Position numbers and translations under genes: made by a program. From IMG/VR virus record IMGVR_UViG_3300022841_000016, positions 1 through 62,118 of that record: a DNA stretch of 62,118 nt; one strand, written 5' to 3'. The notes under the pieces were generated by a model that saw nothing but the letters and a program-made list of their open reading frames with translations, made no database searches and had not been told where the DNA came from. Positions 1 through 62,118 of this stretch are shown one piece after another. The number at the start of each line of letters is the position of its first letter. Within the stretch, counting starts at the first letter, position 1. Source of the stretch: a virus.

Positions 1-1728
1 ATCAAAACAATACACTCCTGTGCCCTGATTAAGAGTAGAAAATCTATCTTTCATTGCTCTTAGTGAGTACCAGAATTTACTTACTGGATTCTGTAACCAT
101 GCTTGTTTACCTATAGTCTGTATCTTACAAGCTTTGGCTATCTCTTTAACAGACCAATTCTTCTTCCAATAAGTCAATAATAGTATTTCACATTGTTGTA
201 ATGGAATACCTGTTGACCTTGACATTGTAGGACCACCTACACCATATACTGCACCATAATTTACAGTCTTAAAATCAGCTCTTTGCTTCTTTATCCATGT
301 ATGCTTAGAAATATCTCTATCAGTGTGTACATTATCATGACTCCAATCTTTGAACCATTGCACATCTGCTTTAGATAACCCCATTGCTTCTCCTGTTACC
401 TCAAATCCAAACTCTGCTAAATCCAAGTGAGGATCAAATCCTGGTACTTGCATTGATTCAACATACTTTGGGTCAAAATAATACATATAGTGTTGTTTAG
501 TTCTATCCTCTAATGAAGACATATCTGAACCACATAATGTCATACCTTCTGGTGCAATTAAGCAACCTCTAATATGAGCACCATCTCTCCAATCTTCTTT
601 ACCTGTTGGTTTAGGAAGATTAACCACTACTGAATGTTTAAATCTAAGAGTATTTGTTAAGCCTGATATTTTAGCCTTGATATACCCTTCTTTATCTACA
701 TCTCTCAAGAAACCACTTAGTAAACCTATTCTGTGCTTGATTACATAAAGCATATCTAGCTCTTCTAGTCTAGGTTCTTCCTTATACAATAGCTTTACAG
801 ACTCACATATACCTTCACCTCTTGGTAATGATACTTGTGGTATCTTTCTTACTTTGTAGTTTTCATCCTTCTCATATTTAAAAGTACTTGGTTCCCACCC
901 TAGAGTGTAAAGCCAATCTTTTAGTTGTTTGTGGGAGTTAGGATTACCTGGTTCTGTTGACTTTTCTAGCTTTAGTGGCTCATCATAATCATCATCTAAA
1001 CCTAAATCAGCTAATAAAGATAACCAATTCTCTGCTAATTTAGAGATTGTACCATCTTTTTTATTGAATACTTTAGGCTTTTTGATGGTCTTATAGATAA
1101 TATTTTCAGGCATTATCTCCACCAATAGCTCTTGTTTTCTTTCAAACTCTTCTTTAAAATTAGAAAGATTAAGGGTACTCTTCTGAACATCTAGCTTCCA
1201 CTTGATGTCCTCTTGCTCTTTAGCACATTCCATCTTGTACATTAAGTACCCTATAATCCTTTTGATTTGAGTCTCATCATGATTGTAGAGGTCTTGCAAG
1301 TATTTAATCTGCTTATCAAAGACAAGCTTATTAATCTTCACATCCTCTACTACTCTATCAATATAAACAGCTATAGGCTGTTCACTCCAATCCTCCACAA
1401 CAGGCTTTGGCACTCCAAAACTTTCTCCCCAGGCTCCTAAACCATGTGAATTTTTGTTTGGATATAGATACCAACTTAACATCAATGTATCTATAATCCT
1501 AGCTGTTGGGTTTATCTTCAGTATCTTCTTAAATAATGGTAAATCATACCTAATAATATTATGGCAAACTAAGGTCATGTCCTTTTGTCTCAAGAACCTA
1601 ACCATTTGATTGTAGTCAGTGATAACACCTGATTTATGTGTATCTAGGTTGTGCCATCCAATTACATGGATTTTACTCACTGTGTCCAGTAAGCCATCAC
1701 TTTCTGCATCAATTATATATCTTGCCAT
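1..1728 (-). CDS. DNA polymerase, family A, with 3'-5' exonuclease (C-terminus beyond window)
   Basis: Replicative polymerase of the phage. The 576 residues in the window start at an ATG at 1728 and run off the left edge. The exonuclease residues are visible: D7 and E9 in IIDAESDG, N57/D62 in HNIIRYD, and D129 in VVEDVKIN, spaced as in T7-type enzymes. Polymerase motif A is GSDMSSLEDRT with D402. Motif B is RADFKTVNYG, with R483, K487 and Y491 in the RxxxKxxxYG pattern. Motif C (HD) must lie outside the window. It is the last gene seen in a minus-strand unit with the coiled-coil and helicase genes, 22 bases from its upstream neighbour. Crassvirales carry either family A or family B polymerases; this one is family A. 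Confidence 0.93.
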   Translation of the reverse strand, partial: MARYIIDAESDGLLDTVSKIHVIGWHNLDTHKSGVITDYNQMVRFLRQKDMTLVCHNIIRYDLPLFKKILKINPTARIIDTLMLSWYLYPNKNSHGLGAWGESFGVPKPVVEDWSEQPIAVYIDRVVEDVKINKLVFDKQIKYLQDLYNHDETQIKRIIGYLMYKMECAKEQEDIKWKLDVQKSTLNLSNFKEEFERKQELLVEIMPENIIYKTIKKPKVFNKKDGTISKLAENWLSLLADLGLDDDYDEPLKLEKSTEPGNPNSHKQLKDWLYTLGWEPSTFKYEKDENYKVRKIPQVSLPRGEGICESVKLLYKEEPRLEELDMLYVIKHRIGLLSGFLRDVDKEGYIKAKISGLTNTLRFKHSVVVNLPKPTGKEDWRDGAHIRGCLIAPEGMTLCGSDMSSLEDRTKQHYMYYFDPKYVESMQVPGFDPHLDLAEFGFEVTGEAMGLSKADVQWFKDWSHDNVHTDRDISKHTWIKKQRADFKTVNYGAVYGVGGPTMSRSTGIPLQQCEILLLTYWKKNWSVKEIAKACKIQTIGKQAWLQNPVSKFWYSLRAMKDRFSTLNQGTGVYCFD

Positions 1729-1750
1729 AACTATTATTGGGGTTTAATTA

Positions 1751-2041
1751 TTAATTTAATCTATCTTTCTCTTGTAATTCAGAAACTTGGTCTTGCAACC
1801 TTTGGCATCTTATGTTAAGCTTCTTATTCCTAACATGTGCACCCATCATTTCCTCTTTGTAAGAGACTAATTTAGACGTTTGTTTACTCATTGACCTTAT
1901 ATCTTCTTTAAAGTCTGATAAGTTCTTTACTGCATTAATTGCAGTGCTTTCCTGTAATCTAAGTTGCTTCTTAAGCTCCTTAATGTAAGACAGTGAGAAT
2001 TGTAACTTCTCAAAGTCAGTAAGCTGTTCATGCTTAAACAT
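1751..2041 (-). CDS. Small coiled-coil protein between helicase and DNA polymerase
   Basis: A 96-residue protein rich in Lys, Glu, Gln and Leu, with heptad-like stretches at both ends (YIKELKKQLRLQE and RLQDQVSELQEKDRLN), so a coiled coil over most of its length is likely. Its ATG lies inside the last codons of the helicase gene, giving an 8-base overlap that suggests translational coupling. The context points to a replication accessory role, but no family was recognised. Confidence 0.8.
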   Translation of the reverse strand: MFKHEQLTDFEKLQFSLSYIKELKKQLRLQESTAINAVKNLSDFKEDIRSMSKQTSKLVSYKEEMMGAHVRNKKLNIRCQRLQDQVSELQEKDRLN

Positions 2042-3305
2042 TGTACAATATAACTAGGTTACTAGCTCTTGTTACTGCTGTGTACAACAGTCTTGTCTTT
2101 TCTTTGTCAACTCTATTTCTATTGATGTTTCCAATATTAATAATAGTGTCTTTGTAAGTTGAACCTTGACTCTTGTGTACAGATATTGCATGATTGTACT
2201 TGAAATTCAGAAACTGTTCTGAAAATGCATAGTATTCTACCCAGTCAATAATCTTACTAATTGCAAGACCTTTTAACTTTCTTTCATTTTGATGGTGCAA
2301 TGCAATAAAATCTTCATGTACAGCATCTATCTCATTATTTATGACATATACTTTGTACTCAAATCTTGCATTACCACAATAGAAATTCTTGGTAGTCACT
2401 TCTAAGCTTTCAACTAGCAATTCATAATTGTTGTAGAGTGTATTCTCTTCATCAATTACATATTGTCCATTTAATACTAGAGTTTCTCCAATTTCAATAA
2501 GCTTTGGTTGTCCATATATCTGTGCTCTGACTGAGAAATTGATTGAATCAACCTCTGCATTTGTCCAAGCTATGTACTTTAGTTCATCTGTCCCATTAGC
2601 TTCTGCTAATTTATAGATAATTTTCTTCCTATCATCAGAATAAAGGAATCCTGTTCTGTTTATTCCTTCTCCATGAGTGTTTTCTTCTTTGTTATATATT
2701 TTACTAAGGTCATTACTCAGCTCTATGATTGGGTTTCCCAACCCTTGTCTGATAATTTCAGTAAGTTTAACTGTGTACCAATTCTGGTGAAATACAGGTG
2801 AGTGTAATTCTTTTACAGGGTTAACTTGCTTTTCATCTCCTATAAATAACATAGGAAAATCATATTGTTCTAGCAATGTCAACTGGTATTTAGTCAACAT
2901 TGAAGACTCATCTACAATAAGTAGACTAGCTCTTTTGAAAGGAGCATCCTCTCTTCTAAAACTTTGCAAGAAATTCTTCTGACCTTTCTTGTTTATTTTC
3001 ATCTTAAGTCTTAGTGCCCTATGAATTGTACAAAATACAACTGGGTCTTGTTCTTCTTCCATTGCAACTTTAGTTTTTAACACTGACAATGCTTTATGGG
3101 TTGGTGCTGCTATGTATATTTTACCACTCCCTATTGTTTGTGCAAACTCTTCTAATAAAAAGTTAACTAAAGTAGTTTTACCTACTCCTGCAGAGCCTAT
3201 TAAAACTATCTTCTCTCTGCCTTGTCTTATTTGAGTTAGAATATCATCTAACTTTTCTTGCTGATGTGATGTTGGAACCACATTAATAACTTTTCTATCT
3301 ATCAT
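2034..3305 (-). CDS. SF1B DNA helicase, Dda/RecD-like
   Basis: A 423-residue ATP-dependent helicase, probably 5'-3', for replication or recombination. Walker A is GSAGVGKTT with K43. Motif Ia is IAAPTHKAL. Walker B is LLIVDESSM with D132/E133. Motif III is FIGDEKQVNPV, motif V contains AISVHKSQGSTY, and motif VI is LLYTAVTRAS near the C-terminus. The length matches phage Dda-type helicases. It lies directly upstream of the coiled-coil and polymerase genes. Leader space to its right includes the terminator of the preceding unit. Confidence 0.93.
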   Translation of the reverse strand: MIDRKVINVVPTSHQQEKLDDILTQIRQGREKIVLIGSAGVGKTTLVNFLLEEFAQTIGSGKIYIAAPTHKALSVLKTKVAMEEEQDPVVFCTIHRALRLKMKINKKGQKNFLQSFRREDAPFKRASLLIVDESSMLTKYQLTLLEQYDFPMLFIGDEKQVNPVKELHSPVFHQNWYTVKLTEIIRQGLGNPIIELSNDLSKIYNKEENTHGEGINRTGFLYSDDRKKIIYKLAEANGTDELKYIAWTNAEVDSINFSVRAQIYGQPKLIEIGETLVLNGQYVIDEENTLYNNYELLVESLEVTTKNFYCGNARFEYKVYVINNEIDAVHEDFIALHHQNERKLKGLAISKIIDWVEYYAFSEQFLNFKYNHAISVHKSQGSTYKDTIINIGNINRNRVDKEKTRLLYTAVTRASNLVILYNV

Positions 3306-7582: not shown

Positions 7583-7783
7583 TTATGAGTCTTTGAAGAA
7601 ATCCATTGGATGTTCTCCTGTTACTCTGGTTGATAATATTTTAGTTCTTTGGATGTTGATAATACTATTAGATGTCTTTACTAATGTATTACCTCTATCA
7701 AGACTTATTTTCTTTTCAGATACATCTTCAAATACTTGAAGCATTTTATCTGTTAATTCAATGTAGTTCTTTGCTTTTGACAT
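7583..7783 (-). CDS. Small phage protein of the ~60-residue helical family
   Basis: 66 residues. The pattern of LTDKMLQVFEDVSEKKISLD, then NTLVKTSNSIINIQRTKI, then a short end with PMDFF resembles a widespread group of small phage proteins of unknown function that have two helices and a C-terminal FL/FF tail. The ATG lies 26 bases inside the end of the HNH-type gene. Function unknown. Confidence 0.7.
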   Translation of the reverse strand: MSKAKNYIELTDKMLQVFEDVSEKKISLDRGNTLVKTSNSIINIQRTKILSTRVTGEHPMDFFKDS

Positions 7784-8291
7784 GTCTATGTAGTTTAAGT
7801 GTTATTTTCTTTAGTTTATATAACTCATCAGGTAGTTCATCTATTTTTAATCTCATAATAGATGATATGTAAGATTTGGTAATCTTTTCTCTGCCTTTAT
7901 CATTTCTTTCTTTCCTCTTTTCAATGAAAACATTGTTATGTTTGTACTTATGATACTGCTCATTTGCTGTTTTTTCTGATGGTGCTCTATAGTAGAGGTT
8001 ATCAAGGGAACAGTTAGCAGGATTATTATCCTTGTGAATTAATGGTACATCTATGTCATAGATGTTAACTATTTTAAAGTGTTTTCCCATTAATTGCTTC
8101 ATTAACTTCTCTTTCTTATTCACACATACTTTTAAAGTATTAGTGCCTTTATCTAAGTAGCCATATAATATTCTATCTCTTACAACAAGTGTTTTTGAAG
8201 GATGTATGTACCAATGTCTAATAACTACACCATCTTCTCTTATAGAATACTGTTTATTGGTGCCTAGTATGTATTTTGTTTGAAGTATCAT
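7758..8291 (-). CDS. HNH-type endonuclease-like protein
   Basis: 177 residues. The segment VPLIHKDNNPANCSLDNLYY at about residues 82-101 fits the HNH (beta-beta-alpha metal) pattern of phage homing endonucleases, in which a His-x-Asp is followed by N and a DNL. It is preceded by strands that could form the first part of the fold and followed by a very basic tail (IEKRKERNDKGREK) suited to DNA binding. No intron or intein is visible nearby, so it may be free-standing or act in packaging or recombination. The leader upstream is long. Confidence 0.6.
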   Translation of the reverse strand: MILQTKYILGTNKQYSIREDGVVIRHWYIHPSKTLVVRDRILYGYLDKGTNTLKVCVNKKEKLMKQLMGKHFKIVNIYDIDVPLIHKDNNPANCSLDNLYYRAPSEKTANEQYHKYKHNNVFIEKRKERNDKGREKITKSYISSIMRLKIDELPDELYKLKKITLKLHRHVKSKELH

Positions 8292-14241: not shown

Positions 14242-14391
14242 ATGACAGTAACACAGACACTTAGCTTACACATAGAGGATAAAATTAGTTATCATGAAAA
14301 GCTTAGAATACAATTTGAAGCTAGTGAACAATTTGAGCAGTGTGCTAGGCATAGAGATGAGGTAACAAAACTTAAAAAGATGTTAGCTTAA
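14242..14391 (+). CDS. UVR-motif micro-protein, 49 residues
   Basis: The C-terminal two thirds, FEASEQFEQCARHRDEVTKL followed by KKML, fits the UVR motif of UvrB/UvrC: an FE, then ARxRDE, then a Leu-rich helix. That motif forms an alpha-hairpin for protein-protein contact. Nothing else is present. The stop overlaps the terL start as TAATG, so it is coupled to terminase. It could be a terminase partner or an unrelated helical hairpin. Confidence 0.55.
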   Translation: MTVTQTLSLHIEDKISYHEKLRIQFEASEQFEQCARHRDEVTKLKKMLA

Positions 14392-16457
14392 TGGTTACAG
14401 AAACTAAGATTAGAGACAAAGATGGCAAGTGGCTGAAGAGTGACTTGTTCAGAGTAGAAGCTATTAAGTTCCAAAAGTATGGATACTTCTGTTCTGATTA
14501 TTGGGGAACTGCAGGATGGATAGAATATTGGGAAGAGCAGTTAAAAAGATGTAAGGATGGATTTGAGATACAAGGAGAGAGAATAACAGGTCATCATTAT
14601 ATGTATCTAAATTTTTGTCAGATACAAGTAGTAAAGAAATTAGAAGGGAAGAAGGCTTCCAAGAAAACAACTACTTTTCCAGATTTCTGGGATGGAGATT
14701 ATGATTACTTTTGGTCTCTTGAGATTGCAAGAAATGGGATAGAGAAACAAGAGTTGGAGGACCTTAACCTAGGGGTGAAACCACACCCTGACTTCCTAAC
14801 AGGAGGTTTCCACATGATTGTGGGGAAGAGTAGAAGGAAAGGTTATAGTTACAAGAATGGAGCAATTTCTGCTAACTATTATAATACTGAAAGAAAAGCA
14901 CAGGTTATCATTGGTGCATCAGAAAAGAAGTTTTTGTACCCTAAAGGTACAATGGGTATGACAAGTGATTACCTAAACTTCCTTAATGAGTTTACAGGTT
15001 GGAGAAAATCCAGAGATTATGTAGACAAGCAAGACCATAGAAAAGCATCTTTTAAGAAGAAAATAAATGGGGTAGATATTGAGTCTGGTTATCAGTCAGA
15101 AGTATTTGCCCTAACCTTTAAAGATAATGCTGATGCTGCCAGGGGTAAGGATGGTATAGTTGTATTACTAGAAGAAGCAGGAGCATTTCCTAACTTAAAA
15201 GCTTCTTATGCAGCCATCAAACCTGCACTTACTGCAGGGATGTACATTACAGGACAAATCATTATATTTGGAACAGGTGGAGATATGAAATCAGGTACAG
15301 CAGATTTTGCTGACATGTTTTATAATCCAGTAGCTTATGGCTTAATGCCATTCATTAACACTTGGGATGACAATGCCCAAGAGACTACTTGTGGATTCTT
15401 CCACCCAGTGACAAAGAACCTAGAAGGGTTCTATGATTTGCAAGGTAATTCAAACATTCCTGCAGCCTTAGAGTTTGAACAATCAAGAAGAAAAGTCATA
15501 CTTGAAAGTAGTAATAACAGTACAGCATATCAAAGACATGTTCAGGAGTTTGCACTAAAGCCATCAGAAGCTTTTTTAACAGTGTCCACAAATGATTTTC
15601 CTGTCATAGAATTAAGAGCACAACTTAACAGAGTATTAAGAGAAAAGTTGATGTTAAAGAAGGGAACACCAGTCTCCCTAAGAAGAGCAGAAGGGGGTAA
15701 AATCCTAGCTGAACCAGATCTGGTCAACAAGTTAAACCCAATAATACATTACAAAGTAAAGGAAGCAGACTTAACAGGATGCCCTGTTATCTTTGAGTTT
15801 CCATCTAATCCACCTAAAGGCTTGTATAAAATAGGGTATGACCCTTATAGGCAAGACCAAACTTCTGGTGTATCTTTGGCAGCAGTATATGTTTACAAAA
15901 CAATACAGAAAGGAAACAGCACTAAAAACATTATTGTTGCTACTTATGTAGGTAGACCACAGACCTCAGATTCCTGCAATAGAATTGTAGAGCTTCTAGC
16001 AGAATTATACAATGCAGAAGTAATGTATGAGAATGAAGTACCTGATGTAAAGAAATACTTTGAAAGAAGAAAGAAGCTACATTTACTTGCAGCACAACCT
16101 GATGGTGTAATATCTAAGAATATCAAAGCTTCAAGAGTAGCTAGAGTATATGGGTGTCACATGAATGAGAAGTTGAAAGATGCTGGTGCCAAGTACATAA
16201 AGCAGTGGCTACTAGAGGAGAGGGATTTTGATGAAAATGGAGATGTACTACTAAATTTAGATTTTATATATGATGTTGGTTTACTAGAAGAGTTGATTCT
16301 TTACAATAAAAAGGGTAACTTTGATAGAGTTATGTCATTGATGCAAGTTATGTTTCAAGTAGAGGAAGATGAACTAGGCAAAGAGTACTCTGACACAGGG
16401 GAACAAAACCAGAATATAAAAGACTTATTGGAACTTAATTTGTTTAACAAAAACTAA
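14391..16457 (+). CDS. terL: Terminase large subunit
   Basis: DNA-packaging motor, 688 residues. The ATPase half has a modified Walker A GKSRRKGYS at residues 145-153 and Walker B IVVLLEEAG ending at residue 264, whose second Glu serves as the catalytic carboxylate. The nuclease half begins with a strand ending in GYDPYRQD (D484), the first metal ligand of the RNase H-like fold. A later MYENE block and DGVISKN follow. Walker A of this RRKGYS type is typical of crAss-like terminases. It is followed after 10 bases by the portal gene. Confidence 0.92.
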   Translation: MVTETKIRDKDGKWLKSDLFRVEAIKFQKYGYFCSDYWGTAGWIEYWEEQLKRCKDGFEIQGERITGHHYMYLNFCQIQVVKKLEGKKASKKTTTFPDFWDGDYDYFWSLEIARNGIEKQELEDLNLGVKPHPDFLTGGFHMIVGKSRRKGYSYKNGAISANYYNTERKAQVIIGASEKKFLYPKGTMGMTSDYLNFLNEFTGWRKSRDYVDKQDHRKASFKKKINGVDIESGYQSEVFALTFKDNADAARGKDGIVVLLEEAGAFPNLKASYAAIKPALTAGMYITGQIIIFGTGGDMKSGTADFADMFYNPVAYGLMPFINTWDDNAQETTCGFFHPVTKNLEGFYDLQGNSNIPAALEFEQSRRKVILESSNNSTAYQRHVQEFALKPSEAFLTVSTNDFPVIELRAQLNRVLREKLMLKKGTPVSLRRAEGGKILAEPDLVNKLNPIIHYKVKEADLTGCPVIFEFPSNPPKGLYKIGYDPYRQDQTSGVSLAAVYVYKTIQKGNSTKNIIVATYVGRPQTSDSCNRIVELLAELYNAEVMYENEVPDVKKYFERRKKLHLLAAQPDGVISKNIKASRVARVYGCHMNEKLKDAGAKYIKQWLLEERDFDENGDVLLNLDFIYDVGLLEELILYNKKGNFDRVMSLMQVMFQVEEDELGKEYSDTGEQNQNIKDLLELNLFNKN

Positions 16458-16467: not shown

Positions 16468-18864
16468 ATGGCAGATATTGGAAAAGGGGTTAGACTCTCA
16501 CTACAGCAAAAGAACTCCAACAAAAAGCAATGGTTTAAAGACAGAGCCAATGCATTAAAAGGAGCTTCTTTTACTTCTTCTACTCACAGTGGGGGAGTAT
16601 CAGAATACAAAAGAAAGAAAGTCAACTATGACTTGTACAACAACATTATAAACCAAGAAGATTTTGCTTATGTATGTAAGCCTTTTGGTGCTGGTTCAGG
16701 AGAATTACCTGCAACCTTTACAAACAAGGATATTACTTCTCCTAGAATAAAGGCAGTGATAGGGATGGAAATGAAAAGACCATTCTCATTTAAGACACTA
16801 GCAGTTAATGAAGAAGCTACCAACAGAAAAGAAAAGGTAAAGTTTGACATGATTAAAGAGTACACTGTATCTCAAATTATGGCTCCTATACAAGCAGAGG
16901 TAGAACAGAAGTATCAAGCACAAGCAAAAGGTAGAGAACTTACTCCTGATGAATCAAAGCAGATAGAGCAAGCAATGGCTGAAGAGATGAAAGCTATGAC
17001 ACCCCCTGAAGTAGGGAAGTACATGTCTAGGCAACATCAAGATCCAGCTGAAGCACTTGGACATCAACTGTTACAAGGGATTGTACAGAAGCAGGATGTA
17101 AAAAGAAAGTTTGACAAAGGTTGGAAACATGCAACATTATCTGGGGAAGAAATTTACTGGGTAGGACAGGTTAGGGGAAAACCTAGCTTAGGAGTGACTA
17201 ATCCTATTAGGTTTGATTATGACAAATCTCCTGATACAGATTTTATTGAAGATGGAGAATGGGCAGTAGCAGAATATAGAATGACACCATCTCAGTTTGT
17301 TACCATGTTTGGAGATGAATTGACAGATGAACAAATAGACCAAGCATACACTGAAGCAAAAGGTGGAGGTCCTACAAATGCTGGAGATTGGGCATTCAAT
17401 GAAACTGAAAGCCAAACAGGAAACACTTTATCAGTTTTCCATTACACATGGAAAGGACTTAGAAGAATAGGTTTCTTAGAGTATGCTGACTTAGCAACAG
17501 GAGAAACTCAGATGACTGTAGTTGGAGAAAACTACAAAATGGACAAAGACTTAGGAGACATAAAAATGTCTTGGGAGTGGATTCCAGAAGTATATGAAAC
17601 TTATGTAGCAAGAGGAGATATGTATCTTAGGATGCAACCTGTTGAAGGGCAACACAAAGATTTAAACAATTTATTTGAATCTAAGCTACCTTATTATGGA
17701 GCAGCTTATGACAACTTAAATTCTGAGACAACATCATTGATGGACAGAATGAAAGTGTGGCAATACTACTACAACATCATTATGTACAGGGTAGAGCTAT
17801 TAATGGCTTCTGACAAGGGTAAGCTATTACTTATGAATATTAATGCCATACCTAAGTCTTCAGGTATAGACATAGAGAAGTGGTTGTACTATGCAGAAGC
17901 TTTAAAGATAGGTTGGGTTAATCCTAATGAAGAAGGTAACAAAGGTTTAGATGTGACTAACATGGCTAAACAAGTTGACATGTCTTTAATGTCTGACATA
18001 CAGAAGTATATTGACTTAGCAGGATACATAGATGACCAATGTGGGAAGTCTGTAGGTATTACTGATGGGTTAATAGGACAGATTGAGCAAAGAGATGCAG
18101 TAGCAAATACACAACAGAATATGTCTTCTGCTTCTACTATCTTAGAACCTTACTTTGACTTACATAATCATGTAAAGAGAAATGTACTTCAGGCACTGAT
18201 AGAGCAATGTAAAATATCATACTCTGATTCAGAAGATGAATTTATTACATATACTTTAGATGACTTGTCTACTGAAATGTTAAAAGTAGATGCTGGACTA
18301 TTAGATTCTTCTACTTATGGAATATTTGTAACCTCATCTTCTAAAGCTTATGAAGCAGTGGAACTAGTTAAACAACTAGCACATGCAGCACAGCAGAACA
18401 ATTCTATAAAGCTGTCTAGTGTTATTAAAGTAATTAGAGCTGAAGGAATACAAGAAGCAGAAGAATTACTTGAGACAGGAGAAAATGAAATGACTCAACA
18501 AAATCAAGCACAACAATTACAAGCTATACAAGAGCAAGGTAAAAATGAAGAAGCTGCAAGACAATGGCAAAGAGAGACAATGGATCTTACTCAAGCTAAT
18601 ACATTGGAGCAAATCCAAGCTAAAGGGGAAATTGACCTACAAAAGCAAGCTATGCTTTCTATGGGATTCAATGAGAACAAAGACATGGATAATGATGGCA
18701 CACCAGATATAGTAGAGCTATATAAGGATGGTGCAGATGCAGACTTAAAAATGAGGAAGCAGAATTTAGATGAAAAAAAGTTTGAAGAGGACAAGAAACA
18801 GAACAAAGAGAAAAACTCTATAGAGAAACAAAAAATAACTCAAGCAAAACAAAAGAAAGAATAA
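16468..18864 (+). CDS. Portal protein
   Basis: 798 residues; forms the dodecameric DNA gate at the capsid vertex. It is placed between terL and the scaffold/capsid genes. The GYIDDQCGKSVGITDGLIGQ segment and the DAVANTQQNMSSAS block resemble the stem/crown region of crAss-like portals. The last 130 residues are Gln/Glu/Lys-rich coiled coil. That tail contains DMDNDGTPDIVEL (from residue 739), a DxDxDGxxD calcium-binding loop like those in thrombospondin-3 repeats. Residues 457-472 share a motif with the gene at 11807. Confidence 0.9.
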   Translation: MADIGKGVRLSLQQKNSNKKQWFKDRANALKGASFTSSTHSGGVSEYKRKKVNYDLYNNIINQEDFAYVCKPFGAGSGELPATFTNKDITSPRIKAVIGMEMKRPFSFKTLAVNEEATNRKEKVKFDMIKEYTVSQIMAPIQAEVEQKYQAQAKGRELTPDESKQIEQAMAEEMKAMTPPEVGKYMSRQHQDPAEALGHQLLQGIVQKQDVKRKFDKGWKHATLSGEEIYWVGQVRGKPSLGVTNPIRFDYDKSPDTDFIEDGEWAVAEYRMTPSQFVTMFGDELTDEQIDQAYTEAKGGGPTNAGDWAFNETESQTGNTLSVFHYTWKGLRRIGFLEYADLATGETQMTVVGENYKMDKDLGDIKMSWEWIPEVYETYVARGDMYLRMQPVEGQHKDLNNLFESKLPYYGAAYDNLNSETTSLMDRMKVWQYYYNIIMYRVELLMASDKGKLLLMNINAIPKSSGIDIEKWLYYAEALKIGWVNPNEEGNKGLDVTNMAKQVDMSLMSDIQKYIDLAGYIDDQCGKSVGITDGLIGQIEQRDAVANTQQNMSSASTILEPYFDLHNHVKRNVLQALIEQCKISYSDSEDEFITYTLDDLSTEMLKVDAGLLDSSTYGIFVTSSSKAYEAVELVKQLAHAAQQNNSIKLSSVIKVIRAEGIQEAEELLETGENEMTQQNQAQQLQAIQEQGKNEEAARQWQRETMDLTQANTLEQIQAKGEIDLQKQAMLSMGFNENKDMDNDGTPDIVELYKDGADADLKMRKQNLDEKKFEEDKKQNKEKNSIEKQKITQAKQKKE

Positions 18865-20183: not shown

Positions 20184-21629
20184 ATGGTAGGTAACAAATT
20201 AATTACCAAACAAATGCCTTGGCATGCTAACATGACAGAGATGAACCATTTAGGTAAAGCTCTTATTGCAAAGCCAGACAAGTTTGAGTCAAAAATTGGA
20301 CAGTTGTTTACAGCTGAAAAGTATTCTGATAACCCTTTAACTGCTATGGCACTTAAAGAAGGTAGAGAGGAAAACACCAATTCTTCTATGTGGGAATGGG
20401 ATATGCGTGCTGCAAGCACTAGACCTTTAGTAGTACTAGAAGATGTATCTCCTGGAGATACAACAAAAGGAAAGTTCAAAGGGACTTTCAAAATCAAATT
20501 AGATGAGAACTGGTATGAGCCAGGAGACATCATTACTCCAGGAACTACTAACAAGAAGTTCCAATGTAGAGTACAAGAAGAGCGTGTTCCTCATGGGAAA
20601 GGTTTTATCTACACTTTACGTTTGATGAGTGATAACCCACAATTGTTTATTCCTTCTATGTATTTCAAAGCAGGAACACAATGGGGTAAATTGTATTCTC
20701 AATATGCTGAAGCTGAAACTCAATCAGGTTCTACACAATATGCTTTGCCTATCACTATGGCAAACAGAATGTCTAGATTCAGAAAGAAGTACAAGGTTAC
20801 AGGAGATGCACACAATGAGGTATTGGCTGTAAAGATTCCAGACTCAATGGGTACTTACCATGATTCATGGGTTAAGTATGCAGAGGTAGAGTACTGGCAA
20901 CAATGGTACAGAGAAATTGAAAGAGGATACTGGTACTCAAGAAGTACAGATTCAGTATTATCTGCCAATGGTAGACCAATCAGAACAGGACCAGGATTAC
21001 AAGAGATGTTAGAAGATTCTCACACACAGCGTTATTCTCACTTAACTGCAAGGTTAATTGAAGAGTACTTAATGGGTATTTTCTACTCAAGAGTTAAGCC
21101 AGGTGCTGCAAGAAAAATCAAAGGATATTCAGGTGAATATGGAATGATTAACTTCCACAGAGCTATACAAGATTGGGCAACTAAAACTGGATTTATTCAG
21201 GTGGTACAAGATTTATTTATCCAGAAGGGTTCTTCTGAATACAATGATAATGCTGTATCTGCAGGTTACCAATTCACAAAATACAGAATGGCAAATGGTG
21301 CTGAATTAGAATTAATTCACAATCCACTTTATGATGATAGAGAAATCAATTTTGAAATTGACCCTGTTACAGGTTACCCTCTTGAATCTCAAAGAATCAC
21401 ATTCTTAGATTTCTCAGGAGAAGGTAAATCTTCTAACTGTAGAATAGTAAACAAAAACAAGTCATACAAACTTGGGTATGTTGCTGGTTTGACCAACCCT
21501 TATGGTCCTAATGATGGAAAGTTAATGAGCCATTCAGGTGACTTCTATGAAATGCATGTTGAGAAACAATCAGGTATGCACATTGAAGACATTGGAAGAT
21601 GTGGTGAATTAATCCTTTCTAGAAACTAG
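20184..21629 (+). CDS. Major capsid protein (HK97-fold expected)
   Basis: 481 residues, close to the roughly 490 of crAss-like capsid proteins. It lies right after the scaffold and has its own strong terminator. Features include an N-terminal arm, AASTRPLVVLEDVSPGD, and a C-terminal half with GAELELIHNPLYDDREINFE, a pattern I associate with Crassvirales capsids. Four of the 12 CG dinucleotides seen in the window are CGT Arg codons here, a sign of codon selection for high expression. No SD; the leader is A/T-rich. Confidence 0.9.
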   Translation: MVGNKLITKQMPWHANMTEMNHLGKALIAKPDKFESKIGQLFTAEKYSDNPLTAMALKEGREENTNSSMWEWDMRAASTRPLVVLEDVSPGDTTKGKFKGTFKIKLDENWYEPGDIITPGTTNKKFQCRVQEERVPHGKGFIYTLRLMSDNPQLFIPSMYFKAGTQWGKLYSQYAEAETQSGSTQYALPITMANRMSRFRKKYKVTGDAHNEVLAVKIPDSMGTYHDSWVKYAEVEYWQQWYREIERGYWYSRSTDSVLSANGRPIRTGPGLQEMLEDSHTQRYSHLTARLIEEYLMGIFYSRVKPGAARKIKGYSGEYGMINFHRAIQDWATKTGFIQVVQDLFIQKGSSEYNDNAVSAGYQFTKYRMANGAELELIHNPLYDDREINFEIDPVTGYPLESQRITFLDFSGEGKSSNCRIVNKNKSYKLGYVAGLTNPYGPNDGKLMSHSGDFYEMHVEKQSGMHIEDIGRCGELILSRN

Positions 21630-38185: not shown

Positions 38186-38193
38186 TAACTTTG
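38186..38193 (+). promoter_or_regulatory. Bacteroidota-type -7 promoter box, possibly leaderless
   Basis: TAACTTTG fits the TAnnTTTG consensus of the Bacteroidota primary sigma factor. A GTTTAA stretch lies about 17 bases upstream, near where the -33 element should be. The start codon of the nuclease gene begins at 38199, so transcription would start at or a few bases before the ATG. Confidence 0.5.
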
Positions 38194-38198
38194 TGTTC

Positions 38199-41449: not shown

Positions 41450-44400
41450 ATGGCTCAGAAAACACAACAAGGTCCTGTACCTAAAAGAGGTTTAATTACT
41501 GACACTTCACATCTTAATCAACCCCCAGGTGCATTAACTTTTGCACTTAATGTTGTTAATGAAAGTGAAGATGGAGACATGGGTTGGAGATCCAATGAAC
41601 AAAGTAATGAGCCTTGTTATACTTTAACAAGTGGATATATCCCTTTAGGGGAAATTTACATTGACAAGAATGATAGTTTATTGCTGTCAGTATCAGAAGA
41701 TGGTACTATGTCTGAAATAGGCATCATTGGTGTTAACTGTCAATATACTGTTTTAGTAAATGCAGACTTAGGATTCAAAGCTGAAAATCAAATTAGTGGT
41801 ACTTATAGATTAAGAAGGGGTTGTGAAAGAACTTTTTACTTTACTACACCCACTCCTATGCTATTTAATATGGATAAACTCAATGACTTTAAAGTTGATG
41901 AGACAGACTCTGATAGTGATTGGGACCCTGCAAAGTTTAAGTTGTTTAAAGTTTATGAAAGTATTCCAACTTTTCAGTTCATTGAAGTAATAGAAAATGG
42001 ACTACTAGCTCCAGGTTCTTACAATGCTTCTATACAATACTTAGACAATGACTTAAATCCTACAGAGTGGATTACAACTTGTGAGCCAATTAAGATTTAT
42101 AATGATTCAGTAAGTAAGAAGTACAGTGCTATAGAAGGTTCAACCAATGTTGTAAATGCTGCACTTAATTTTGGATTAACTAACAAAGCAATAAAGTTTA
42201 GCTTTACTGACTTTGATACATCTTATCCTTACTATAGAGTAGCTATCATTTCATCTAACACAGGTAGTGGTTTAGTGAATGAGGTAACTTTTTCAAGCCC
42301 TATTTCAACTAACATAAAAACATATACTCATACAGGTTCTTCATCTACTGTTACCACTGGTACAGAAAATGAGATACTGGCATTTAACAATGTCATTGAA
42401 GAAGCAGAATTTGTAGAGCAAATAGAAAACAAATTAATACTTGGAAAGACTAAAGGTGTACAGATTAACTTCTGTGGACTACAGAAGTATGCAAGTAAAA
42501 TAAAGTCAGATGTAAGACTAGAAGAAACAACCCTTAACATCATAGGTGGCAATAACCCTAAAACAGCTACTGTAAACTTTGATGGAGTAGGTTATATGCC
42601 AGGAGAAATATATTCTTTTGGAATAGTCTACATATTTGAAGGTAGTATTCTTTCTCCTGTGTTTCACATACCAGGAAAAGCAGAAGGACATATCTCTAGC
42701 ATGTCAGACAACAACTTACTAGATTCTCCTTACCAATCTACTTCCTGTAAAGGATTCTGGGGACTAGATTCTCAAGGTGGTACTTTGCTAGGTCAGCCTA
42801 TTAGGCATCACAGATTTCCTACAAGGTCAGAAATTAATGAACCTTTATTTACTGAAGACACTAATGCTGAAAGTTTTACATTAAATAATCTTGTACTTAC
42901 TTTAAGTGCTAGTGCAGTTACAGGTACAACCATATCTTATGAGGTATCTTATAAAATAGATGGTACACCTAAGACATTTAACACTTCTTTCTTGTCATCA
43001 GTATTTGATCCTGCAGAAGGGTTAGAAAGGACTGTTGCAACTACAAGAGGAGTTATAACAGAAATAATAATAACAGAAGACATAGATGGTGCAGGGTACA
43101 CAGAGATTACACCTGGAGTAGAATCCACATCTGGAGTAACCTATGCTCAATCCATAGTAGCAAGAGTAGTAGAAACTGAAGATGCTGTCTACACTTCTAA
43201 AATAATGGGTATTACTTTCTCAGGAATAACTGTTCCTGAAGAAGTTTCTACCAATGGGTACAAAGTAATAGGGTATTACATAGTTAGAAATGAAAGAACT
43301 GAAGATGAGAAAACTGTTTTAGATTCTGGAGTAATGACACCTATGATGTTAGAAGAAAGAGGGTTTGTGGCTCATGGTCATATCTTTCCTAATTTATCTG
43401 ACACTAGTAGAATAGACAAAGACATCTTTGGTCTTATACATCCAGAGAATAAGTTTAATGGTCTTGAGTATAAGAACTTAACACAAATTACACAAGAAGG
43501 AGAATACAGAATAGTTTCTCAGGCTTTATCATCAGTGCTTACACAAGATGTAGGTGCAGGAACTTCCTATGACCCTGATGTACACAAAGGTTTTGATGGA
43601 GATGGAATTACTTTGCATACTCTTACAAGAGATACTAAAGTTTCTTATCATCAGAAAACTAAGGAATGGATTAACCCTGAAAAAAGAGGAGAAGTTTTTT
43701 ACCTTAATGCTTTAAACTATAAGACAGTTAAAGATAGTGATGACAAAAGTCAAGATGTTTATAATGTATCTGGAGATAACAAAATAGGTATAGTACAACT
43801 AGAAGAGGATATTACTGATGTAAATGACATACATAAAAAATTACCTTATGTAATGCTTAAAAGAGATCTCTCTTCTCCTTATGGAAGTTTCAGAACTCTA
43901 CAGTATTACAAGGAAAATGTAAATCCAATTTACTTTGATACTACCACAGAAGATAAAGATGATGTTACCAAGAATGGGGAACAAGCTTATATCTTAAATG
44001 GAGATAGTTACATAGCACCTATGAAATATCATAGTGCACTGTTTAATAATTTTAGTCTTGCAGATAGAGATACCAAGTCTTCTTTTTGGACTATCCTTGC
44101 AGGAGTATTACTAGTAGTAGTAGGGGTTGCAGGAGCATTAATATCTGGAGGTAGTTCTTTGGCACTTGCTGCAACAGGACTTGCTGCTTTGTCAGCTACA
44201 GCTGCAGTAGTAGTTACAGCTGTATCAATTGCAGCAATAGGTTATGGTCTATCTACTTTGTCAAGTGGTATAGAAATGGCTAATGTAATTGAAGTGTATC
44301 AGAAAATGTATGAAGCAGGTCTTAGGGACACTATACAAGATGATGACACTAAGACTATATTTGATGACAGAAACCAAGCTGATGATGAATTTCAATGGCT

Positions 44401-47101
44401 TGGAGATGTAGTATCAAACTTATGGTTTGAGAGTGGAGTAAATATAGCACTTAGAAATGGTGTTACTTCTATACACTCTGCTTACATAGATGCTCCTACT
44501 GCTATGACTGACTACTATCCAGAGACTGAAAACTTGACTACCAATTCAATAGAAGGGTATTTAAGATACATGACAGGTGCTGGAAGTGCTCCTCAGAACT
44601 ATTTAGATTCTTACATGTTAGAGAAGCTGACTGTAGTAGATGCAGAAAATTCTGATGGTAGATTATACAGAGGGTATGCAGGTGCAGAGATATATGCATT
44701 GAACAGAGATTACCAAAGAACTAACAAGCAAAAAATATTCTATGCTTTAGGTTTAGAGTATGACTGTTGTTCAAACTGTACAGAAGACTTTCCTCACAGA
44801 ACATATTACTCAGAGCAATCTTTTCAAGAAGAGCTTATTGATAATTATAGAGTTTTCTTACCTAACAATTATAGAGACCTTGAGGGTGAGAAAGGGGTGA
44901 TAACTGATTTGTTCAGAATACAGAACAATTTATACATCCAAACTGAAGGAGCTTTATGGCATTTGCCACAAACTATACAAGAAAGAGTAACAGGGGATGT
45001 TGTGTCCTTCATTGGTACAGGAGAGTTTTTTGCTATCCCACCAAGAAAGATCACTGACACTGATAAAGAGAGTGCAGGTACTCTGCACAATTGGGCAAGA
45101 ATGAAGACACCAAGTGGTGTATTCTTTGTATCTGCTACAGAGGGGAAAGTATATTTATTTGATGGGAACAGTTTACAGCCAATAGTTGGAGGTAATGAAA
45201 CCTGGTTCAAGAATAACTTACCAGTAAAAGCAGATTTAGACTATTTAATTTCATCAGGAGTGAATTATCCTTTGGCAAATAATCCCTCAAGCAAATTTGG
45301 TACAGGGTTTATTTCAACTTATGATACACAAAAAGAAAGATTTATATTAACTAAAAAAGATTATGTTCTTTCTAGTGGAATTTTAGATAGCACAGATTAC
45401 ATTACTTGTTCAAAAGATGGGCAGATAATAATCTTTGAGCCAGTAAGTGAAATAATAGCAGCAAGGCTAGCAGATGGTTGGAACTATGAAGGTTTAGAAG
45501 ATTGCAAAATGAAGTTTTCTTCAGAAGTAGTCACACAAACAACTGAAATAATACAAACAGAAACTATCATTGCTAACAAGGCTGATATCCATGTGTTCTT
45601 TGATACATCAGGTTCATTTGATGTAACAGCTTTAGGACAGATAGACAATACTATAGATGCTTGGTTAATTAACTTTAGAGCTTCAAACCCAAGTTGGACA
45701 GGAGATGTGTTTAAATACAATGACCAAACAGAGAGATGGGTAACTTATGCAGACATAATTGCAACTGATAACAGAAACAATTATAATGGTATCACTTCAG
45801 ATAAAGATGTAGTAGTAATTTCATTTTGTAATGAAGCTTCTCCTTCTTATCACAGTAGTGCTAATACTTTGCAAGCTACAACTACAGCATTCCTAGATGA
45901 CTATGATAAGTTTACAGGTACTAACTTGAATGGAAACAATCCAGCACAAGATAGTCTGTACTCTAGCTTTAAGTCTTTTAAAGGAATACATTATCCTATA
46001 GTATTTCCTAATGACCATTGGACAGCACCTTCACAAGCTTTTGTGTTAAACTCTCTAGCTGCACTGAGAGGTACAAGATATACTTTTTCAGAAGTAAATG
46101 CTTTGACAGAAAACTTAGGTTTTGCATCAGGTGCATGGGATATTTTAAAAGCTTCTTTACAAGAGCCTAATTCTTATCCTAACAATGGACTAGAAAACTT
46201 TGGTTGGTTAATTAAACATGATAGGTTTAAAGATGCACAAGGAAGTGTTATAGATACTACAGAGTTTACTAATGACATTACTTTACTTTTAGAAGGTAGT
46301 AATACCACAGTAGAAGAGCAAGTGTTAGTAAATGTAATAGACACTGTAGTAGACTATACATCAGGTAGAGTAGAGTCTGACCCTATACAATATGACTTGT
46401 CTTGGACTATGAGTTATTCTTTAAAAGATAAAGAATGGGTATCATGGCATTCATACACTCCTAACTTTTATTTCTATAGACTACAAGAACATTATTCTTG
46501 GAGAAGTGGAGATAGCCAATTATGGAAACATAACAAAGCTAACCACTATCAAACTTTCTATGGTGTAAGACATCCTCATATCATTGAGTATGTAGACAAC
46601 AAGAAACCTAGGGAAACTAAAATTTGGGACTACTTGAATATACAATCTCATGCACAAGAGTTTAATCCTACTTACCAGGACTATGTTGATAAGGACATTA
46701 CTTTCAACAAGCTTATTGCTTACACTTCTAAACAGTCAACAGGGTTAGTAAACCTGGTTGTCAAAGATGAAGAGTTGGACTACTTAGACAACCAAGTAGT
46801 AAACAATGTAGACAGTATCTTAGTTGACAGAACAGAAAGAGACTGGCACTTAAATGATTTAAGAGATGTAGTAGTTGATTACACTCTTCCATTATTCAGA
46901 AGAGACAATCTTTCATTACAATCTGAACATTATACAGATAAGGTGCTTAACACTATTGTATTAGATTACAATAAGGAATGGAATGAACTACAAAGTTTTA
47001 GAGATAAATATTTGGTACTAAGACTTATTTTTGATAATTTTGATAACATAAAATTAATTACTAACTTTACAGAGGAGATTGAACACAAGTCTTTTAGTTA
47101 A
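41450..47101 (+). CDS. Muzzle-type tail protein, 1,883 residues
   Basis: The start PKRGLITDTSHLNQPPGALT, then ALNVVNESEDGDMG, is the crAss-like muzzle/tail stabilization opening. Central blocks such as FPHRTYYSEQSFQEELIDNY belong to the same fold. Two unusual insertions are present: a hydrophobic hairpin at about residues 880-936 (LAGVLLVVVGVAGAL and a long Ala/Val stretch), and a von Willebrand A-like domain with MIDAS DTSGS at residues 1385-1389, followed by a central KDVVVISFCNEA strand. The C-terminus is again typical tail protein. It plugs the tail end and probably opens at the membrane. Confidence 0.8.
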   Translation: MAQKTQQGPVPKRGLITDTSHLNQPPGALTFALNVVNESEDGDMGWRSNEQSNEPCYTLTSGYIPLGEIYIDKNDSLLLSVSEDGTMSEIGIIGVNCQYTVLVNADLGFKAENQISGTYRLRRGCERTFYFTTPTPMLFNMDKLNDFKVDETDSDSDWDPAKFKLFKVYESIPTFQFIEVIENGLLAPGSYNASIQYLDNDLNPTEWITTCEPIKIYNDSVSKKYSAIEGSTNVVNAALNFGLTNKAIKFSFTDFDTSYPYYRVAIISSNTGSGLVNEVTFSSPISTNIKTYTHTGSSSTVTTGTENEILAFNNVIEEAEFVEQIENKLILGKTKGVQINFCGLQKYASKIKSDVRLEETTLNIIGGNNPKTATVNFDGVGYMPGEIYSFGIVYIFEGSILSPVFHIPGKAEGHISSMSDNNLLDSPYQSTSCKGFWGLDSQGGTLLGQPIRHHRFPTRSEINEPLFTEDTNAESFTLNNLVLTLSASAVTGTTISYEVSYKIDGTPKTFNTSFLSSVFDPAEGLERTVATTRGVITEIIITEDIDGAGYTEITPGVESTSGVTYAQSIVARVVETEDAVYTSKIMGITFSGITVPEEVSTNGYKVIGYYIVRNERTEDEKTVLDSGVMTPMMLEERGFVAHGHIFPNLSDTSRIDKDIFGLIHPENKFNGLEYKNLTQITQEGEYRIVSQALSSVLTQDVGAGTSYDPDVHKGFDGDGITLHTLTRDTKVSYHQKTKEWINPEKRGEVFYLNALNYKTVKDSDDKSQDVYNVSGDNKIGIVQLEEDITDVNDIHKKLPYVMLKRDLSSPYGSFRTLQYYKENVNPIYFDTTTEDKDDVTKNGEQAYILNGDSYIAPMKYHSALFNNFSLADRDTKSSFWTILAGVLLVVVGVAGALISGGSSLALAATGLAALSATAAVVVTAVSIAAIGYGLSTLSSGIEMANVIEVYQKMYEAGLRDTIQDDDTKTIFDDRNQADDEFQWLGDVVSNLWFESGVNIALRNGVTSIHSAYIDAPTAMTDYYPETENLTTNSIEGYLRYMTGAGSAPQNYLDSYMLEKLTVVDAENSDGRLYRGYAGAEIYALNRDYQRTNKQKIFYALGLEYDCCSNCTEDFPHRTYYSEQSFQEELIDNYRVFLPNNYRDLEGEKGVITDLFRIQNNLYIQTEGALWHLPQTIQERVTGDVVSFIGTGEFFAIPPRKITDTDKESAGTLHNWARMKTPSGVFFVSATEGKVYLFDGNSLQPIVGGNETWFKNNLPVKADLDYLISSGVNYPLANNPSSKFGTGFISTYDTQKERFILTKKDYVLSSGILDSTDYITCSKDGQIIIFEPVSEIIAARLADGWNYEGLEDCKMKFSSEVVTQTTEIIQTETIIANKADIHVFFDTSGSFDVTALGQIDNTIDAWLINFRASNPSWTGDVFKYNDQTERWVTYADIIATDNRNNYNGITSDKDVVVISFCNEASPSYHSSANTLQATTTAFLDDYDKFTGTNLNGNNPAQDSLYSSFKSFKGIHYPIVFPNDHWTAPSQAFVLNSLAALRGTRYTFSEVNALTENLGFASGAWDILKASLQEPNSYPNNGLENFGWLIKHDRFKDAQGSVIDTTEFTNDITLLLEGSNTTVEEQVLVNVIDTVVDYTSGRVESDPIQYDLSWTMSYSLKDKEWVSWHSYTPNFYFYRLQEHYSWRSGDSQLWKHNKANHYQTFYGVRHPHIIEYVDNKKPRETKIWDYLNIQSHAQEFNPTYQDYVDKDITFNKLIAYTSKQSTGLVNLVVKDEELDYLDNQVVNNVDSILVDRTERDWHLNDLRDVVVDYTLPLFRRDNLSLQSEHYTDKVLNTIVLDYNKEWNELQSFRDKYLVLRLIFDNFDNIKLITNFTEEIEHKSFS

Positions 47102-53500: not shown

Positions 53501-56500
53501 AACAGTGCTATACATGAAGAGTTAGTTAGCAATGAAACTGCTGTAAGAAAGTATTCTGCATTCCAAAAGCAAATGGAAGCAAGAGCTAAAGAAAAAGCAG
53601 CAGCAGAGAAGGCAGCTGCTTCCTTTAAAAAAGGAGGAGATGATGTAACTAAACCTGATGCAGAAACAATCAAAGCACAAGGACAAGAAACTGTTGCAGA
53701 AACAGCTACACCTTTGACAGAAGAAGTAGTGGCAAAAAGTGTAGAAACTCCTAAAGCCAAGACTACTGCTGAACAACAAGAATATCATCAAGTTAATTCT
53801 GATAATATCTTTGGTGCATTAAATGCAGTAGCAGAAGCAACATCTGTTTTACCAGAAACAAATGTAACTTCTGAAACAAGAAAAGATAAACTTGTTCAAA
53901 GCAAACAAGGAGCAATAGAACAAGCTAAACTAGAACAAGTTGTTACAGACTTAAAAGCAGAAAAAGTTGCTTTAAGAGATAAAGATGGAACAATTTCTGA
54001 TGAAAACATGAAAAGGTTTAAGTCTATACAAAAACTTATTTCAAAAGCAACTAAAAAAGCTACTAGGGCAGATACTTCAAATGGTGTATTTCATGCAATT
54101 AAAACTAAAAGTCCTGTAGATGGAGATCCAGTTGTTTTAACACAATCAGATGCAATAAAAGCAGAACAAGATATACAAGAAATAATAACTAATGGTCTTA
54201 AAAATAAAAAAGACAGCAATGATATTTTATCAGAAATAACATCAAAATATAGTTTTGACATTTCTACTGTAAGTAGTATTCTTAATTATATTGAGGACCA
54301 AGATTCAAGTGTACCAGAAGTAGGTAACAACAAACAATCATTTGCAGCATGGAGAAAAGCTTCTTATGACAATAAGAGAGTAGAGGAAGACACAGATGAT
54401 ACAGAAGACCTTGATGAAGATGGTTACATAGAAATGATGTTACCAGGAGGTACATACTTAAATGATAAAACTACTGCAACCCTTAAAGCTTATTATGAAG
54501 ATAAGATTAAATGGGAAGGAGTTTCTCCCACCTTTCAAGACTTTTGGCTTGAAGCAATTCAAGAAGGTTTTATTGCTAAGAATGATTTAAGCAAAGAACA
54601 AATTAAAATGCTTGGTTTAAATTGGCAACAAGCTGGTAATGGTAAGAGTAATTGGGAATCTATTTGGGACAAGAATTATGTTAAGCCTAATAGTTTTTTA
54701 TCACAAGTCTTTGAAGAGAATGGTTCTTTAGTTAAAACAGAGGAAGAGGTTATTGCAGAAATAGAAGAAGCATCTGAAGCTGCTGTAATTAAAGCAGAGC
54801 CACAACAAGTAATAAACCCTACAACAGGAGCAGTAGTTCCAGTAACTTCTGTAGCAGGTAAAACTTCAGTAGTTACTGCTAAAGCTAATTTTAAAGCAAT
54901 AGCTTATCAGAATGAAACATCAGATGTACAAACAGTAAATGGTAAAAAAGTAATACAAGTATCAAAACAAGATACTAATCAAGGTGTACCAATGCTTGCT
55001 GAAAGTAAAACTATAAACATTGTGGCTACTTTAAATAGTAACCCAGGAGATATATGGTCAGTAGCAATGGCAACAGAAGCTGAATGGGATATACCAGTAG
55101 AAGTTACAAATACTGCTAATTGGACAACAGAGTTTATGCCTTTTTCTACATGGGTAAAAAGAAATATCAAAGGAAGAAGCATTGAAGACTTTCAAAATTC
55201 TCCAGAGTACATTAACAAAGTGCCTATGTTGTATAGAAACAACAAACAGCAAGTTGTTGGTGTAGTAGCTGACTCTGATTGGTACAGTCCTTTGACAATA
55301 AAAGATTCAAGTAAAAAGAATGGAGAATTTGTAGAGCTTAATAACCCTACTGCTGCACATGCTAAGTCTATAAAGGAAGGTAAAGACAACACTATAGCAC
55401 TTAGACAAAAGATAGCTAGTGGAGAGGTTACAAACATGGAAGTTGAAACTAGAGATGGAAGTCCTTATGCTAAAGTCCCTAGAAATCTGCCTGCAGTTTC
55501 ACTAGAGAAAGCTTCTCCTACTTCTGAAATTGTATTCTTTAAGACAGGTAATTTCTATGGCTTAAACAATGAAAAAATAAATGAAGACAAGACTAAGGCT
55601 ATTACTAATCCAGGTCTTATTAAAAAGTTAAATCAACAGAATAATTCAGGAAACAATAGTGCTTATTATATGAGTCCTGTTTATATCAAAGATGGTGTAC
55701 AGTTTTATGAAGTGATAGCTGTTCTTAGAAAAAATGAGAACAATGAAAATAGTGCTTTTGATGCAGACATACAAACTTCTAAGTATATCTTAGGTGCACA
55801 AAAAGTTTTAAAGTTTCCTGATGCAAACCAACAAGAGTTAGGTATTACTAAAACAGAAGCTTTAGCTCTTCAAGCATTAGTGAAAGCTCAAACAGGTTTA
55901 GATATTCAAGACTATGGTGTAGCTAAAGAACTAGTTCATGGATTAATTGCAATACAAGGTTTAAACAGTGATGCTAAAGACAGTAAGTTTACTGTATCTT
56001 CTAAGAATGTACCAATAATGTACCAAGATAAAAATGGTAACCTTGATACAAAAGAAGTAAGTTTTACAGATGCATTGTTCTTAGGACAAAGTACAGTAGT
56101 GCAAAACACTTATGTAAACAGTAATAATTCAAAAGGTATTACAATCTCTAAAAATTCAGAGGGATCTTTTGATGTAAATGTAGCTGAAACTTATGAAAAG
56201 TTTTTAAGGAAGAGATTGTTTACAGATGTTGTGAGTTATGATATAGGTACTGAAGGTAATCCAAAATTTACCCATTCAGTTCAGCCTATCATTAAGCTAA
56301 AAACTACCACAGCAGTGTCTGTAACTGTTGCACCTCAAGTAAAGAATGAAGTAAAGCCTACAATAGCTGTAGCAAAAGAGACATTAACTGAAGAGCAAAA
56401 TGAACAAGTCTTAGCTGCACAAAATGCTTTAAGACTGTTAAATGCTTTAAATGAAGGCTCTATTTCTGAAGACTACATAGGAGATTTAAAAAACATAAGT

Positions 56501-61575: not shown

Positions 61576-61578
61576 TAC

Positions 61579-61854: not shown

Positions 61855-62057
61855 CATCAGAAGAAATAGCTATTATGGCTTTGCAACAAACTAATTCTGA
61901 ATTAGTAGCTGCTGTTAATACAACCAAAGCAAATATAGAATCATCAATAAATGATGCAGTTGTCTTAGCTGGAGATACAGTAGTAGCAGGGTTAATATCA
62001 GTTACTAGTAATTCCATAGCTTCTAAGACTATGTTTCTTAGATACTTAAATAAATAA
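61851..62057 (+). CDS. Small helical protein, 68 residues
   Basis: From the ATG at 61851 (ATGA overlap with the previous gene) the product is almost all helix-forming (EEIAIMALQQTNSELVAAVN), with Thr/Ala/Ser content typical of fiber connector coiled coils. Function unknown; part of the fiber cluster. Confidence 0.6.
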   Translation: MTSEEIAIMALQQTNSELVAAVNTTKANIESSINDAVVLAGDTVVAGLISVTSNSIASKTMFLRYLNK

Positions 62058-62060
62058 ATT

Positions 62061-62118
62061 ATGCCAACAAATCAAGACATAGTAGACAACATAGTTGTTT
62101 TAGATGACTCAGTTCAAG
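62061..62118 (+). CDS. Start of a further gene, cut by the window end
   Basis: The ATG at 62061 opens MPTNQDIVDNIVVLDD with no stop before the window ends. It begins 3 bases after the previous stop, so it probably continues the fiber cluster. Too short to assign. Confidence 0.5.
   Translation, partial: MPTNQDIVDNIVVLDDSVQ

Follow-up and report, generated by a model that had tools for sequence, protein, structure and literature searches.

Vertebrate genomes and their viruses are depleted in CpG, through methylation and deamination and through avoidance of ZAP. In bacteriophages, the closest described phenomenon is restriction-site avoidance: according to a published study (PMC6286503), phages avoid orthodox Type II sites, but not those of Type I or Type IIG, and those of Type III only rarely. 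The DNA analysed here, IMG/VR virus record IMGVR_UViG_3300022841_000016 (62,118 nucleotides, the whole stretch being referred to as the window), is nearly devoid of the dinucleotide CG. The window resembles the phages subject to restriction-site avoidance, being a double-stranded DNA phage without a detected methyltransferase and with depleted palindromes, but it loses a dinucleotide in all flanks, palindromic or not, approximately 150-fold. With vertebrate CpG depletion it shares the dinucleotide and the genome-wide extent, but it is more extreme, occurs in a bacteriophage and lacks TG/CA compensation at fourfold sites. The Flavobacterium psychrophilum phage FpV4, whose host is known, shares core genes with the window and is also CG-poor (ratio 0.065), whereas FpV4 retains 106 CGs over its 88 kb, only 7 of them RCGY, and avoids more palindromes (12/27 testable non-CG palindromic 6-mers, versus 4/34 in the window). 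The loss is extreme, genome-wide and variable between lineages, with no deamination signature in the window and no methyltransferase detected.

The window contains 12 CGs versus 1,752 expected (ratio 0.007; ratios are observed/expected from base composition, strand-symmetric; G 18.3 %, C 15.4 %), and 200 mononucleotide shuffles gave 1754 ± 35 CGs, the lowest value being 1679. The first-pass annotation, made by reading the letters, had listed twelve positions and expected well over a thousand; the full count returned exactly these twelve (1877, 11337, 11965, 12458, 19451, 20406, 20583, 20619, 21030, 23641, 24462 and 60995), with none missed. CG was absent from 53 of the 62 one-kb bins. The main features of this distribution are:

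1 to 62118, no strand: the whole window, CG observed/expected 0.007 (exact count).
24464 to 60994, no strand: about 36.5 kb free of CG (exact count); the longest CG-free run of the window measures 36,533 bases.
20406 to 21031, plus strand: a stretch with four of the 12 survivors, each within a CGT arginine codon of the major capsid gene.

When the 50,166 coding bases were re-coded for unchanged amino acids, using codon frequencies pooled from five low-GC relative loci that are somewhat poor in CG as well, 748 ± 19 CGs resulted, versus 9 observed. The codons CGN (5 versus 263 expected) and NCG (1 versus 497) were almost unused, as had been noted at first reading, and C|G at codon junctions was equally scarce (3 versus 581). 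Outside the 46 open reading frames used there were 3 CGs versus 259 expected, and outside all open reading frames of at least 70 amino acids 0 versus 155. A codon or tRNA effect alone was rejected, because codon junctions are emptied like CGN codons; the tRNA limits proposed in the first-pass annotation are not supported either, junctions and non-coding DNA being as empty as the CGN codons. The loss was alike in shared and rare genes (7/1045 in genes present in at least 10 of 16 genomes, 4/532 in those present in at most 3), and an escape of rare, perhaps young, genes was accordingly rejected. The words CCGG, GCGC, TCGA and CGCG were absent from the window by word count, as claimed at first reading; ACGT nevertheless occurs 6 times.

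Judged by homologous genes rather than formal membership (the taxonomy of the FpV4 record, genus Fipvunavirus, carries no Crassvirales name), the window represents a crAss-like relative of FpV4: it encodes terminase, portal, capsid and muzzle homologues of crAss-like phages and FpV4 relatives. In a survey of 121 viral-contig loci of this family, some of them overlapping, the CG ratio spanned 0.000-0.897, being below 0.1 in 51 and above 0.3 in 18; genome values include 0.048 (G003), 0.26 (G019), 0.43 (G008) and about 0.08 in the GC-rich G021 and G025. The window lies far below the ratio of 0.3 that the first-pass annotation had set as its limit, and relatives, at 0.00-0.90, do not share one value. 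In a capsid tree of 99 rows, the deep branches of which are unsure, L065 (0.59) and L075 (0.80, 4 kb only) belong to a supported 11-member clade in which the other 9 have ratios of 0.04-0.24; because these two loci sit among low-CG members, the trait seems quick to change. Gene content did not separate low from high CG in the compared set, in which long CG-rich members of the family were lacking. When relatives at 73-83 % identity were compared, the CG sites were matched by a mixture of TG, AG and CA, a comparison in which the direction of change is not polarisable. A sequencing or assembly artefact was rejected, since many contigs are CG-poor, as are the cultured FpV4 and FPSV-D5, and a near-identical contig exists, G002 (2 differences across 54,974 aligned bases, nearly the same phage).

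One explanation, raised at first reading, is that a host or phage CG methyltransferase modifies CpG and that CG then decays to TG and CA. TG and CA are common in the window, as had been noted, but the rise is moderate (TG/CA 1.19) and AG/CT is raised more (1.34). At fourfold sites of the window whose middle base is not C, T fell from 0.450 when the next base was not G to 0.333 when it was G, C from 0.070 to 0.000, and A rose from 0.363 to 0.602, so that TG and CA were not gained at freely varying sites; T before G also falls in close kin, and in NCN codons the missing G was replaced mostly by T, not A. Across 74 family loci of at least 8 kb, which are related and a few of which come from the same contigs (p-values are therefore rough), the CG ratio correlated positively with the TG-type (Spearman +0.31, p 0.008) and CA-type signatures (Spearman +0.28, p 0.016). 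Deamination predicts a negative correlation; the signatures weaken as CG falls, so that the trend across the family runs opposite to the prediction. A search with three models found no cytosine-5 methyltransferase (PF00145) in 36/36 family records, and neither PF01555 nor PF02086 in 18/18, some of the records being fragments. Furthermore, phages recorded on the host strain of FpV4 have retained CG at ratios above 1.5. In favour of this explanation, TG/CA reaches 1.39 in GC-rich relatives and some relatives show an excess of T before G (discussed below). Methylation followed by deamination is thus decidedly unlikely as the cause of the loss, and the proposal was not borne out in the window.

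All 12 CGs of the window are RCGY (12 versus about 472 expected), and YCG/CGR is absent (0 versus about 1280 expected); the chance of 12/12 is 1.4e-7 with flanks taken as independent and codon effects outside the model. The flanks are constrained on both sides, as duplex recognition would require. Of 12 relatives tested, 11 spared contexts different from those of the window (Fisher p <0.01): RCGY accounted for 0/9 CGs in L013, 1/17 in L014, 0/5 in L007 and 0/5 in L053 (all five ACGA), while L012 (6/8) was not significantly different (p 0.15). Compared with other CG, CCGG was spared in G005, G007, G009, G011, G013, G019, G021, G025 and G027, lowered in G008, and absent or hyper-avoided in the window, FpV4, G003, G004 and the phage phi14:2. 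In G019 (L147-L151), CGC/GCG was nearly gone and CCGG was over-represented (159, ratio 1.72). The specificity thus seems to differ between lineages. Exemptions that vary by lineage in this way would not be expected from a fixed polymerase bias; they are compatible with enzymes that differ in specificity or in methylation state.

Type II-like site avoidance operates in the window genome. Palindromes were depleted beyond their sub-words and non-palindromes were not: ratios below 0.2 were found for 4/34 non-CG palindromic 6-mers versus 1/1365 non-palindromic 6-mers. The depleted palindromes were GGCC (0 versus 18 expected) and GATC (38 versus 165), the only two at an expectation of at least 12, and four 6-mers added at an expectation of at least 6 (GAATTC, GGTACC, CATATG, GTATAC). 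Some avoidance of non-CG palindromes was present in 14/15 family genomes (the window and G002 being near-identical), and absent in G005. FpV4 lacks CCGG (0/30 observed/expected), CGCG (0/30) and GATC (0/215), is poor in CTGAAG (6/49), lacks or is low in GCSGC and CGCAG, and has GTATNAC only mildly lowered. Several of these sites, though not all, match published systems of F. psychrophilum CSF259-93, another strain of the host species, which has 12 systems; 5/8 of its tabulated sites contain or can contain CG (PMC11837570).

Ordinary avoidance on its own might then suffice, if many host Type II systems with CG-containing sites of 4-6 bp (CCGG, CGCG, GCSGC, CGCAG, TCGA, ACGT and others) had produced losses summing to near-zero CG. 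The CSF259-93 sites, the avoidance of non-CG palindromes and the complete absence of single CG words in individual relatives (CCGG in FpV4, G003 and G004; GCGC in G003, G008, G009, G011 and G027; TCGA in G003) agree with it. However, CG outside 4-bp palindromes was as empty as inside (observed/expected 6/1175 versus 6/494 in the window, 85/1084 versus 18/478 in FpV4), so that the loss is not confined to 4-bp palindromic sites, and its bulk needs a reader of CG itself, or nearly. The non-CG words of the window were avoided sparsely (6/45 palindromes, 0/99 non-palindromic 4-mers), CG in all ten context classes, and the spared status of Type I and IIG sites in phages, with Type III rarely avoided, also speaks against it. 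As the whole explanation, ordinary restriction-site avoidance fell short on the equally empty non-palindromic contexts, and the summed form is unlikely. Of the first-pass proposal of selection against CpG restriction, what stands is that restriction-type selection fits best; ordinary site avoidance alone is insufficient.

Other phages of the same host differ widely. The F. psychrophilum phages measured, FpV4 included, spanned CG ratios of 0.065-1.96, those of other lineages 0.84-1.96, twice on the same strain as a CG-poor FpV4-like phage. FpV9 and Fpv6 (L128, L129), absent from the capsid matches of the window, are recorded on strain 950106-1/1, FpV4's own, and lie at the opposite extreme to FpV4 (CG 1.54, AG/CT 0.43, TA 0.47, also listed for L199); strain FPS-D15 is recorded for both FPSV-D35 (0.84) and the FpV4-like FPSV-D5 (0.10, first 50 kb). 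The remaining values were 0.96 for 6H, which has an annotated integrase, and, from 12 kb each as for FPSV-D35, 1.90 for FPSV-S1, 1.96 for FPSV-S27 and 1.54 for FPSV-S18. FpV9 shows strong avoidance of another kind on FpV4's own host strain: CATG occurs once versus 140 expected, CTAG is absent, and CGCG is absent versus 66 expected. It carries a cytosine-5 methyltransferase (PF00145; best solved relatives 8yf3 and M.HaeIII), and FPSV-S1 and FPSV-S27 are annotated with Dcm-type methylases. This suggests two alternatives for F. psychrophilum phages, to methylate or to avoid; the cases are few and 6H, which shares its genus with FPSV-D35, does not fit, having no match to PF00145, PF01555 or PF02086.

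These values bear on the idea that the phage mirrors a CG-poor host, or a host without CGN tRNAs. Several other Bacteroidota phages are mildly to clearly CG-poor: phi14:2 0.46, cr56_1 0.63 (50 kb) and Cellulophaga phage phi4:1 0.26 with AG/CT 1.42 (L194, 20001-32000; outside the family, lower ratios occurring elsewhere too). Phi4:1 is one of five such phages measured over 12 kb each, at 0.94, 0.26, 0.79, 0.56 and 0.64. In a published report, 4 Bacteroidota phages have 1,203-2,126 CpG and the range of Bacillota phages begins at 89 (PMC12132194). However, the CG signature was not common to phages of the one host species, as mimicry of host composition would have it, and tRNA supply leaves the depleted junctions and non-coding DNA unexplained. 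Host-wide composition or tRNA supply is therefore highly improbable, and the host-wide bias suggested at first reading did not hold for F. psychrophilum.

We infer selection on DNA as the cause and a nuclease as the agent. Sustained selection on double-stranded DNA against a CG core, most likely exerted by a nuclease-like agent reading 2-3 bases, is the explanation we favour, tentatively and at somewhat under an even chance. A restriction-type agent would read 2-3 bases, covering in the lineage of the window all YCG/CGR and most RCGY, and a phage without a detected DNA methyltransferase would escape by having no targets; the agent might be of host origin, or the phage might make it as a means of destroying host DNA. 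A more specific version, possible but doubtful, is a self/non-self system reading bare CG (YCG/CGR in the lineage of the window) in duplex DNA: either an undescribed bacterial defence nuclease, or a phage nuclease directed against host DNA to which the CG-free phage would be immune. Relatives would then differ in the flanks read, and those sparing CCGG would be protected there by methylation.

Several observations weigh against selection by a CG-reading nuclease. To our knowledge, no enzyme cutting at plain CG is known. FpV4 does not avoid CCNGG (58 versus 67 expected), a site cut by strain CSF259-93, and avoids GATC, yet that strain has no enzyme cutting GATC. Other phages infect this host species, in two cases the very strain, at CG ratios of 0.84-1.96, so that losing CG is not needed there. 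The excess of T before G in the GC-rich group (L107-L118, G021), G011, G027, L027 and others is of the kind expected from deamination, which may contribute in these relatives. Finally, non-coding CG was 1.3-3.8 times less depleted than coding CG in 12 family genomes (tRNA genes removed) and 1.2 times less in phi14:2, the exceptions among large genomes being the window and G002 (non-coding zero in both) and G009 (0.9); an effect at the transcript level, or functional elements in non-coding DNA, would fit this difference.

The same difference speaks for selection at the level of RNA or translation, in which a transcript-cleaving enzyme or a codon-pair effect would disfavour CG in messages; so do G005 and G007, where the CGN codons are depleted much more strongly than the remaining CGs (0.027 and 0.020). 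Against it, the non-coding DNA of the window has 0 CGs versus 155 expected, its junctions are as depleted as codon interiors, the survivor flanks are symmetrically constrained, and tRNA genes and a repeat account for some of the non-coding excess. G004 (L137-L141) and G007 (L157-L161) have 24 tRNA genes each; those of G004 hold 34 CGs, and most of the non-coding excess remains after tRNA removal. What remains lies partly in the G003 repeat and in tRNA-like-looking stretches (FpV4, G004). The G003 repeat, near 56438-56488, is a short repeated TATCGTAT-like motif forming a CG cluster in an otherwise CG-poor genome. Overall, selection on messages is quite unlikely as the cause, though an effect on transcripts may contribute.

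The genes identified in the window were:

2034 to 3305, minus strand: Dda-like helicase.
7758 to 8291, minus strand: HNH endonuclease-like protein (phrog_959, E 1.6e-9; the Pfam HNH_3 match does not reach its cut-off).
14391 to 16457, plus strand: terminase large subunit (phrog_6681, E 3.7e-162).
16468 to 18864, plus strand: portal protein (phrog_6547, E 1.8e-175).
20184 to 21629, plus strand: major capsid protein (phrog_11589; 61.5 % identity to the capsid of Flavobacterium phage FpV4 and kin).
38193 to 38981, plus strand: PD-(D/E)XK exonuclease (PF12705, phrog_298).
41450 to 47101, plus strand: crAss-type muzzle/virion protein (PF25731; phrog_15100 on part 41450-45500).

No tRNA genes were found in the window and no capsid matches in plasmids. 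The sole result of a scan of genome contigs was L123, a 4.2-kb contig of the family binned in a Nanoarchaeota genome, probably through a binning error and hence giving no host assignment. In FpV4 (L125:13878-16948, FpV4 record 63878-66948), a ThiF (E1-like) gene, with kin in 10 of the 16 genomes compared, FpV4 among them, lies next to unknown genes and one that matches JAB weakly (E 0.0076, below cut-off), a possible ubiquitin-like conjugation cassette on the basis of these matches.

No report of the CG loss of the FpV4-related phages was found in searches of one open library, subscription journals lying outside that coverage. The kind of phenomenon is known (restriction avoidance); what is new is its degree, and a dinucleotide as the target. 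A natural protein-coding phage stretch of 62 kb runs almost without CG, and the ratio varies within its family between 0 and 0.9, even among fairly near relatives. The cause is testable, because a cultured member exists whose host species has a known set of restriction systems. A reader of 2-3 bases, if there is one, would represent a new means of self/non-self discrimination in the contest of phages and bacteria.

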